This document shows, one piece after another, positions 28,581 to 39,136 of a DNA stretch of 64,000 bases. The translations under genes and the position numbers were made by a program. Every line of letters begins with the position of its first letter. Within the stretch, counting starts at the first letter, position 1. A model generated the notes under the pieces. The model ran no database searches. It saw only the letters and a list, made by a program, of their open reading frames with translations, and was not told the origin of the DNA. Origin of the DNA: Anaerorudis cellulosivorans (GTDB taxonomy: Bacteria; Bacteroidota; Bacteroidia; Bacteroidales; Dysgonomonadaceae); contig NZ_JAPCWE010000003.1 in assembly GCF_025943985.1 (NCBI RefSeq), forward strand, positions 62,001 to 126,000. The letters run 5' to 3'.

Positions 28581-28660
28581 AGTTCTGTTTTTTAAAATTA
28601 TGATTAGTAAAATAAACAGGGGGAGCTAAACTGAAAACCGATAAAAATTCTATGTATACT

Positions 28661-28733
28661 TTACTTCCCTCCGCAGGTATTATCCTGTTCAGGTGAAAGG
28701 GTATAATCTCAGCCATAAAATTGGCACCCCTAG
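28661..28733 (-). promoter_or_regulatory. TPP (thiamin pyrophosphate) riboswitch aptamer
   Basis: The minus strand carries the THI-box landmarks in order: AGGGGTGCC, GGCTGAGATTATACCC, ACCTGAACAGGATAAT, CCTGCGGAGGGAAG. It sits 80 nt upstream of thi4 and begins just after the operon -7 box. A C-rich stretch (28618-28626 on the minus strand, GCTCCCCCT) could pair with the 5' AGGGG of the aptamer as the switching partner; that pairing is my inference. Confidence 0.95.
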
Positions 28734-28744
28734 TTTATTTGTTA

Positions 28745-37636: not shown

Positions 37637-37659
37637 CAAATATATAAATATTTTTCAAA
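37637..37659 (-). promoter_or_regulatory. promoter-like element of the first susC operon
   Basis: On the minus strand it reads TTTGAAAAAT, three variable bases, then TATATATTTG. It ends in a TAnnTTTG -7 box. It is identical at 20 of 23 positions to the element before the second susC (59244-59266). It predicts a leader of about 105 nt. Confidence 0.55.
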
Positions 37660-37932
37660 CTTTTTGCAAAACAGAATAAATTTAACATTACGTAGAATCA
37701 ACCAGCAAGTGCGAATTCACCCAAACTTCATTTTGGAAAAAAATACGTTCCGATTTAGCGCCGAGTTTTCGATTTAGCCCTGTAATATGCAACATACAGA
37801 TGGCTGTTTTTGGATATTGGGGTATTGACTTAACAACGGTTATGTCCGTTTCAACAAATACGACGGCATACGGGAACAATTTTCGGTGTTTGGTTTAACA
37901 CAGTTTTTATTCGATAGATGGGTTTTGCCGAC

Positions 37933-37976
37933 TTTTTATCGCTTCTTCTTCGCTCTTCCTTCGCTCCTTGTTCGCT
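37933..37976. repeat. 11-bp-period degenerate repeat, C/T-rich arm (four units)
   Basis: Four consecutive 11-bp units on the plus strand each end in TCGCT: TTTTTATCGCT, TCTTCTTCGCT, CTTCCTTCGCT, CCTTGTTCGCT. Three carry TTCGCT exactly 11 bp apart. The complement (AGCGAA..) resembles the units of the second array about 70 bp downstream, giving a head-to-head arrangement. Eleven is not a multiple of three, so coding constraint does not explain it. Confidence 0.65.
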
Positions 37977-38044
37977 CTAAGGCAGGGAAAACAACATCGG
38001 ATTCCGCGAAACCTGTGTAAAACGAACCTATCTCTTTGCCGCAT

Positions 38045-38165
38045 GTGGAGCGGGATACAGCGGCGAAGTCGGAGTGGACTTTATGCAAAGATGATACAAG
38101 CCTGATGCAAGCATGGAGCGAGGAAGGTGCGGACTTGGTACGGCGAAGGTGCGGAGATAGGACAA
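38045..38165. repeat. 11-bp-period degenerate repeat, purine-rich arm (about 11 units)
   Basis: Reading in steps of 11 bp from 38078, the units are ACTTTATGCAA, AGATGATACAA, GCCTGATGCAA, GCATGGAGCGA, GGAAGGTGCGG, ACTTGGTACGG, CGAAGGTGCGG, AGATAGGACAA. All eight have C at column 9 and a purine pair after it. Three weaker units precede them (38045-38077). The island is much richer in G+C than the surrounding intergenic DNA. I know of no annotated family for it. Confidence 0.65.
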
Positions 38166-38233
38166 CACAAAAATCATTAAAGAAATATTTCCTTAAATAT
38201 ATCTAAATAGGTTTTTATATCCATTTATTTTTT

Positions 38234-38241
38234 TATATTTG
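38234..38241 (+). promoter_or_regulatory. candidate -7 box of the SDR gene
   Basis: TATATTTG fits TAnnTTTG, 136 bp ahead of the SDR start codon. The predicted leader then contains both copies of the 15-bp direct repeat. Confidence 0.45.
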
Positions 38242-38377: not shown

Positions 38378-39136
38378 ATGAACCAATACGATTTAAAAGA
38401 CAAGGTAGCTATTATAACCGGTGCTCGCAGAGGCATTGGTGAAGGAATAGCTTTGATGTTTGCTGCAAATGGTGCAAAAGTAGTTGTAACAGACATAGAT
38501 GAAAAAGATTGCCAAAGAGTGGTTGACAAAATCGCTAAAGAAGGAGGAAAAGGGCTTGCATTAGAACTCGATGTAACAAACGAAAAAAATATTCAGAAAG
38601 TCGTAAAAAGAGTAGTGAGTGAATACGGAAGAATAGATATTCTAGTTAACAATGCAGGCATCTTTATACAAGAAGAATTAGACAAAATGGAAGTGAGTAC
38701 CATCGACAAAATGCTCAATGTAAACTTGAGAGGTGTGCTCTTATGTACAAAATACGTTATTCCGGAGATGAAACAACAAAACTATGGAAAAATTATCAAT
38801 ATTGCCAGTATAGCAGGCTTTGTCAGTTTTGACTTATCCGGTGTATATTGCGCCACTAAAGGCGCCATCGTTAACCTGACGAGAGAATTAGCTATGGAGC
38901 TTAGTAAATACAGGATCAATGTAAATGCAGTTGCTCCGGGTGTTATCGAGACTCCTATGACGGAGAATTTAAGATCAGATAAGGGAATTGCCGATGTCCT
39001 CCTGAGTAAAATACCATACGGCAGATACGGCATTCCTAAAGATATAGCGAATGCAGCGGCTTTTCTGGTAAGTGACGATAGTGATTACATAACCGGACAA
39101 ACAGTTGTAGTAGATGGCGGATGGACAATATATTAG
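38378..39136 (+). CDS. SDR-family NAD(P)-dependent oxidoreductase
   Basis: 252 residues, a classical short-chain dehydrogenase/reductase. It has the cofactor motif TGARRGIG (14-21), NNAG near 91, and catalytic Ser144, Tyr157 and Lys161 (YCATK), ending ITGQTVVVDGGW. Asp39 after the second strand (VVVTDID) suggests NAD(H) preference. It resembles FabG-like or glucose/sugar dehydrogenases, but the substrate cannot be assigned. It stands alone between a repeat-rich intergenic region and a truncated porin gene, unlike the surrounding core clusters. Confidence 0.9.
   Translation: MNQYDLKDKVAIITGARRGIGEGIALMFAANGAKVVVTDIDEKDCQRVVDKIAKEGGKGLALELDVTNEKNIQKVVKRVVSEYGRIDILVNNAGIFIQEELDKMEVSTIDKMLNVNLRGVLLCTKYVIPEMKQQNYGKIINIASIAGFVSFDLSGVYCATKGAIVNLTRELAMELSKYRINVNAVAPGVIETPMTENLRSDKGIADVLLSKIPYGRYGIPKDIANAAAFLVSDDSDYITGQTVVVDGGWTIY

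Follow-up and report, generated by a model that had tools for sequence, protein, structure and literature searches.

A probable MITE-like repeat with IS30-type ends and two opposed 11-bp arrays in one genus of Bacteroidales

The intergenic element at about 37691-38171 of the window (by which we mean the whole 64,000-nucleotide stretch of DNA analyzed here) is most probably a 3'-truncated copy of a genus-specific, nonautonomous, MITE-like element whose two ends copy the terminal repeats of the IS30 family. Only its inner half, 37933-38165, had been described in the original prediction, which offered a remnant of an undescribed mobile repeat as one possible reading; this is the reading that survived, given the dispersed copies, the IS30-type ends, and a nested IS3-type end. 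Judging from these ends, an IS30 transposase would once have moved the copies in trans. The arrays may since have grown and shrunk by slippage, and later change would largely be homologous recombination between copies (gene conversion), with arrays and core presumably supplying the homology for exchange.

The element begins about 240 bp to the left of the stretch first described and stops about 6 bp to its right. In the window copy, a 26-bp terminal repeat is followed by a leader, a left 11-bp array, a core, a right 11-bp array, and a tail remnant (Table 1); the right terminal repeat is absent. As had been noticed, the stretch is rich in G+C (0.511) amid A/T-rich DNA, with 0.216 from the SusC-like gene to the element, 0.204 from the element to the SDR gene, and 0.395 in the whole window. 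The left terminal repeat is also present at the same site in one genome of the genus (G002) and, with more changes, in another (G003). The leader is matched in L003, L005, and L012 from query position ~115-127 onward, and the core of L096, which lies outside the 28-copy alignment, is 1 base longer.

Table 1. Parts of the window copy and period-11 repeats within it (positions in the window)
Feature	Positions	Strand	Remarks
Left terminal repeat, IS30 type	37691-37716	+	CGTAGAATCAACCAGCAAGTGCGAAT; 3/26 mismatches to the consensus TGTAGAGTCAACCGGCAAGTGCGAAT
Leader	37717-37932	+	Gapped alignment along its length to L096, a complete relative
Left 11-bp array, 4 units	37933-37976	-	AGCGAAGGAAG-like on the - strand; aligned in 28 copies
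Core	37977-38077	+	Noncoding; gap-free across 28 aligned copies
Right 11-bp array	38078-38161	+	Units like GGTGCGGACTT; strongest from 38100
Tail remnant	38156-38171	+	Read as the final bases of the IS3-type palindrome, from the orthologous copies L084 and L086 and the alignment to L096
Period 11 (Tandem Repeats Finder)	37939-37977		3.5 copies, score 50
Period 11 (Tandem Repeats Finder)	38092-38112		1.9 copies, score 35

The periodicity itself stands as first reported. All eight units from 38078 (ACTTTATGCAA, AGATGATACAA, GCCTGATGCAA, GCATGGAGCGA, GGAAGGTGCGG, ACTTGGTACGG, CGAAGGTGCGG, and AGATAGGACAA) have C at column 9 followed by AA, GA, or GG, and all four units from 37933 (TTTTTATCGCT, TCTTCTTCGCT, CTTCCTTCGCT, and CCTTGTTCGCT) end in TCGCT. 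Compared with dinucleotide shuffles (n = 2,000), the lag-11 value of 37933-38165 is 0.437 versus 0.251 (SD, 0.029) and was reached by none of them; among 500 shuffles, none reached 0.437 at any lag from 5 to 39, and lag 22 ranks second. Taken by itself, the left arm has a lag-11 value of 0.676, which 0 of 2,000 shuffles reach at lag 11 but 39 of 500 reach at some lag, and the right arm has a value of 0.482, reached by 0 of 2,000 at lag 11 and by 0 of 500 at any lag. Tandem Repeats Finder, which had been proposed as a check, recovers period 11 in both arms. The complementarity claimed for the two arms is real but modest, the best ungapped value being 11 versus 7.3 in shuffles (reached by 21 of 1,000). 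The original prediction had named, as outcomes that would speak against it, the lack of a lag-11 excess and the identity of the segment as a decayed known gene or IS end: the lag-11 excess was confirmed and no known gene turned up, but IS ends of known kinds are indeed present in the segment.

The element is a dispersed noncoding repeat located between genes in one group of uncultured Bacteroidales. In the genome to which the window belongs (G000; 2.82 Mb in 38 contigs, estimated to be 98% complete), the query 37690-38200 yielded at least 66 matches at E values of ≤10, from the scoring of 40 of 79 initial candidates. The element is present there, complete or partial, in at least 43 separate places, namely, L001-L039, L062, L064, L065, and L067, with partial copies such as L039 (one half) and L032 (arrays only); duplicates of one place, e.g., L040, L041, L045, L049, L054, L057, L068, and L102-L111, are omitted from the counts. 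Some copies have a shorter core on the same plan. Across 28 aligned copies from three genomes, the mean column identity is 76%.

Among 61 genomes, all those used for comparison being drafts, matches at E values of ≤0.001 occurred in four: the own genome and three of the same genus (G001, G002, and G003). At this threshold, with at most 12 candidates per genome scored, none of the 33 other genomes of the family and none of the 24 of the order matched. An exact 24-base core pattern retrieved 32 stretches from 84,980 species genomes, all in three MAGs, UBA4179 (G003), UBA1410 (G002), and STE_74; the last is titled Paludibacteraceae, and its flanks match G000 loci at ~84-95%. Outside its own genome, the element was found only in the three genomes of the same genus and in STE_74, with no match in viral contigs (exact pattern) or in plasmids and phages (blastn).

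Terminal repeats were evaluated in 74 of 85 distinct copies, the 11 others having flanks too short for the purpose. With up to 4 of 26 mismatches allowed, the left repeat opens 6 of the 74 copies, and the same repeat, inverted, closes 11 of them within 5 mismatches; in most of the copies neither end falls within these limits. A reversed-pattern control never gave fewer than 9 mismatches in 148 ends. Counts for a looser repeat pattern were 13 in the own genome (control, 2) and 6, 10, and 12 in G001, G002, and G003, respectively (control, 0). With up to 5 of 24 mismatches, the other IS30 end is present on the right side in 3 of the 85 copies (L014, L059, and L096). Only L096, from G002, has both ends: this complete copy of 592 bp has no transposase gene and opens with the left repeat and the leader, followed by the core between its left and right arrays, the IS3-type palindrome, and the terminal ATTCGCACTTCTAATTTGAACTTA. 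In an alignment of 491 columns, the window copy matches it at 74% and lacks the palindrome and the right end.

Both kinds of end occur beside IS30-family transposase fragments. In L132 (G002), an open frame of 169 aa matches the NCBIfam IS30 transposase NF033563 (E value, 5e-52), and the first repeat lies directly behind the stop codon of this fragment. In L085 and L115, coordinates and strand place the second repeat upstream of fragments of this transposase; L096 therefore carries one of each IS30 end. Pieces of this transposase occur in 10 fetched loci, some of which coincide, and one of the two ends is present in every such locus. Since the fetched loci contained fragments only, with no intact IS30 recovered, and no convincing target-site duplication accompanies any IS30-ended copy (none is visible in the flanks of L096), we infer the mobility of the element rather than observe it. 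ATCG is found on both sides of L038, a copy without IS30 ends. No IS30-type repeat was seen at the left of the short-core copies examined, which may thus have had another founder.

Two further sequences touch on this subject. L063 (contig C18 of G000, ~436-640) holds an array-free element of ~200 bp with the two kinds of IS30-type end, a simpler relative that shares these termini. Within the leader of the window copy, CTGTAATATGCAACATACAGATGGCTGTTTTT at 37780-37811 recurs in the genome (contigs C13, C22, and C4) and abuts a truncated IS3 in L107; it resembles the terminus of a further mobile element.

In the palindrome nested near the right end, both ends of an IS3-family element are fused. 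A full copy of this IS3 in L106 (TGTCTC...GATACA, with GCG on both sides) starts with TGTCTCGTCCTGAAATAGG, ends with TGTAAACAAAAATCAGGACGATACA, and is located between a right array and TGTAGAGTCAACCGG; its transposase matches NF033516 (E value, 2e-73). In the own genome, this IS3 is represented by a full copy, a partial copy, and seven short matches to its ends. The palindrome is retained in the orthologous copy L086 (G002), where it ends in GGACGATACA, and the orthologous L084 (G003) has only the last palindrome bases (AGACGATACA), as does the window copy.

Many positions of the element are shared between genomes. The sites of 18 of the 43 G000 copies are occupied in another genome as judged by both flanks, and those of 9 by one flank; for the remaining 16, a shared site was not found among the loci fetched. 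The window copy, which lies between divergent SusC-like and SDR genes, is old: its site is shared with G002 by both flanks and with G003 by the left flank and ~100 bp on the right side. Similarity to G003 stops ~100 bp past the element, and the SDR gene (38378-39136) therefore appears to be missing from the orthologous site in that genome. We considered the window site as a breakpoint in G003 and rejected it, since the flank on the side of the element is conserved there for ~100 bp. Five G000 sites were also looked up in G003 by long stretches, independently of its copies (this lookup leaves out L033, L035, and L039). L018 was occupied, L024 was probably occupied (one flank), and L034, L036, and L038 were empty, all three being occupied in G002. 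Only the absence of L038 is clean; L036 and L034 lack a clean edge, and their absences look as much like deletions. In both L093 (G003) and L099 (G002), the left flank of L030 of G000 is joined to the right flank of L067 of G000. This apparent gene-order breakpoint lies at an element; misassembly is possible in drafts, although two genomes agree.

At some sites, the contents of the element change faster than its positions. Array sequence and length vary between orthologues. For the core, full-core copies of G000 could be compared with those of other genomes in 13 pairs at 9 loci, leaving out copies with <90% of the core and hence 3 of the 19 listed pairs (L021/L083, L022/L089, and L022/L094), which gave no value; the pairs L007/L047, L016/L078, L016/L095, L017/L079, and L001/L084 are linked by one flank. 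For six pairs (5 loci), the difference is 0.17-0.27, and each of the copies in these pairs has a nearer paralogue within its own genome. The difference is large for L050 (0.018 to the paralogue versus 0.234), and the paralogue is only just closer for L001/L084 (0.161 versus 0.169). The remaining 7 of the 13 pairs, at 4 of the 9 loci, differ by 0.03-0.08; these are plain core orthologues, so replacement is not general. Pairs without G000, outside the 13, differ by 0.121 (L055/L099), 0.226 (L052/L059), and 0.089 (L042/L043). In four of the six strongly differing pairs, L012/L050, L008/L053, L005/L056, and L001/L086, core identity falls below that of both flanks; in L008/L053, for example, it is 0.74, versus 0.88 and 0.91 in the flanks. 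Among 48 cores, selected with the same 90% limit, the nearest one is in the same genome in 27 cases, versus 15.6 with shuffled labels (17 of 5,000 shuffles reach 27).

Core type also differs at conserved sites. With both flanks matching, G000 has a short core and G002 a long core in L028/L076, L064/L080, L065/L059, and L034/L118; G003 likewise has a long core at L065 (L052) and has a short one at L028 (L121). L037/L071 was rejected as a core swap, as the long copy in L071 is ~1 kb from the L037 site. These patterns leave an outside chance that the opposed 11-bp arrays are exchange borders, so that the sites would be fixed chromosomal docks in which an inner cassette, with a long or a short core, is swapped between loci. 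Were this true, positions would be inherited while contents spread within each genome, and the exchange could be active and protein driven rather than ordinary gene conversion.

A second alternative, which we consider improbable, is that the 11-bp units are sites on one helix face for a nucleoid or chromosome-organizing protein and that the copies have been kept for this reason. It would account for the real 11-bp period, for parts of the right array being nearly invariant in the 28 aligned copies, and for the 18 of 43 sites common to another genome by both flanks. Against it stand the IS-type ends, the orthologues that differ in array sequence and length, and the 3 empty sites among the 5 looked up in G003, and neither the orientation nor the gene context of the copies is fixed; what favors it comes down to the period and the well-kept positions. 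With a simple ORF caller, 41 of the 43 copies could be classified (2 were near contig edges or without a neighbor): 23 lie between codirectional genes, 15 between divergent genes, and 3 between convergent genes, approximately as predicted by intergenic length (6380, 5444, and 375 bases, respectively, in gaps of ≥100). Frames of ≥150 aa overlap a copy in 2 of the 41 (181 or 196 aa) and in none of the other 39.

It is very doubtful that the two arms form a transcribed structured RNA or a regulatory hairpin. The check for conserved folding suggested in the original prediction gave a divided answer: the window copy beats 199 of 200 shuffles on the + strand (z, -2.74; - strand, -1.56), and the + strand is more stable than the - strand in 55 of 55 copies, but over these copies (20 shuffles each), the mean z is only -0.82 on the + strand and -0.57 on the - strand, and two-sided changes occur in 2 of 32 predicted pairs. 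Given the low mean z, the strand difference is mostly one of composition. Rfam has no match inside the element at the gathering score, its five matches at E values of ≤10 all lying to the left, and copies between codirectional genes are found in both orientations (14 the same and 9 opposite). Elsewhere in the window, a TPP riboswitch is located at 28649-28741 on the - strand.

Scarcely more credible is a REP/REPIN or BIME-type repeat spread by a RAYT, a single-stranded Y1 transposase. The copies are dispersed, intergenic, and inverted, and the genome has two Y1_Tnp matches, one of them in a 600-aa frame with an Eco57I match. However, the copy nearest to either Y1 match, L016, is 2.8 kb from the matching fragment on contig C2, the ends are of IS30 type, and 15 of 41 copies lie between divergent genes, where REP/BIME repeats are, to our knowledge, nearly absent. 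The 600-aa frame itself (L069, 991-2790, on contig C7 of G000) matches both a Y1 transposase (PF01797) and an Eco57I methylase, and an IS30-type end with 3 mismatches precedes it by ~125 bp.

A decayed piece of a protein gene can practically be dismissed: in many copies, one + frame of the core gives a GRDNNIGFR-like reading, and this frame is open in 22 of 37 copies and one - frame in 34 of 37, but the consensus peptide of the + strand has no Pfam match at an E value of 10, and all three phases are equally variable (diversity of 0.322, 0.286, and 0.280 at the three codon positions; permutation P = 0.73). This equal variability argues against coding on both strands and, for the core, supports the earlier claim that protein repeats do not explain the element. 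The + frame reading ...GRDNNIGFRETGVKQTCVFAACRAGYRGEAGANFM..., which we take to resemble the end of an FGE/SUMF1-type domain, prompted the idea of a DGR template/variable repeat; this was rejected, as there are no reverse transcriptase (PF00078) matches in the own genome, no Pfam match, and no codon signal.

With no coding signal, no strong mean RNA fold, no Rfam match, a placement that follows intergenic length, and copies in both orientations, we interpret the element as derived from a mobile element and now largely passive. We read exchange between copies as the main visible effect of the family at present, and the window copy is probably inert now apart from spacing and recombination. TATATTTG occurs to the left (37637-37644, - strand) and to the right (38234-38241, + strand) of the element. 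TAnnTTTG is the promoter motif of Bacteroidetes; TATATTTG fits it and may serve the divergent SusC-like and SDR genes as such, in which case the element would be upstream of both promoters. A second short-period intergenic repeat, with runs of GTGTAGGAAG in a 10-bp period, is located beside several copies (flanks of L016, L024, and L035 in G000).

The features of a MITE are recognizable in this family: the element is short and free of transposase, has many dispersed copies, shows no coding signal in its core, and carries IS30-type ends, both in one full copy and one in a minority of the others, with IS30 itself present as fragments. It resembles the IS30 family in that its two ends flank IS30-family transposase fragments in the same genus, and it differs in lacking a transposase. 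No description of the element was found in searches of open-license full texts, and the family is apparently new, although of a kind already known from related bacteria.

BrickBuilt, a MITE of Porphyromonas gingivalis, is an intergenic, narrowly distributed element with a leader, a tail, 23-nt repeats in one direction and in varying number, IS5-type ends (GAGACCTTTGCA), and many truncated copies (PMC4596501). Our element is likewise intergenic and narrow in range, with a leader, internal tandem repeats in varying number, a tail, IS-type ends, and many truncated copies. In contrast, its core lies between two opposed 11-bp arrays, its ends are of IS30 type (TGTAGAGTCAACC), and an IS3-type palindrome is nested in it; because repeat length, arrangement, and ends differ, it is not a member of BrickBuilt. 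PgRS/464, another MITE of P. gingivalis with internal tandem repeats, has 41-nt repeats and, according to the same source, ends almost identical to those of BrickBuilt (PMC4596501). REP/BIME repeats are insertion targets of IS elements, as described for REP palindromes and named ISs from other genera (PMC1525189). The present element shares with them an IS, here of the IS3 family, directly at the edge of the repeat, one full IS3 having been seen.

The family is a further example, from a source other than Porphyromonas, of a Bacteroidales MITE with minisatellites; in this one, the two arrays are opposed and the ends are of IS30 type. It suggests that such elements have captured short-period arrays repeatedly. 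Where sites are shared between related genomes, exchange among dispersed bacterial repeats can be measured directly, the positions being old and some of the cores turning over. Finally, the breakpoint located at a copy (L030/L067) suggests that the family may shape gene order.
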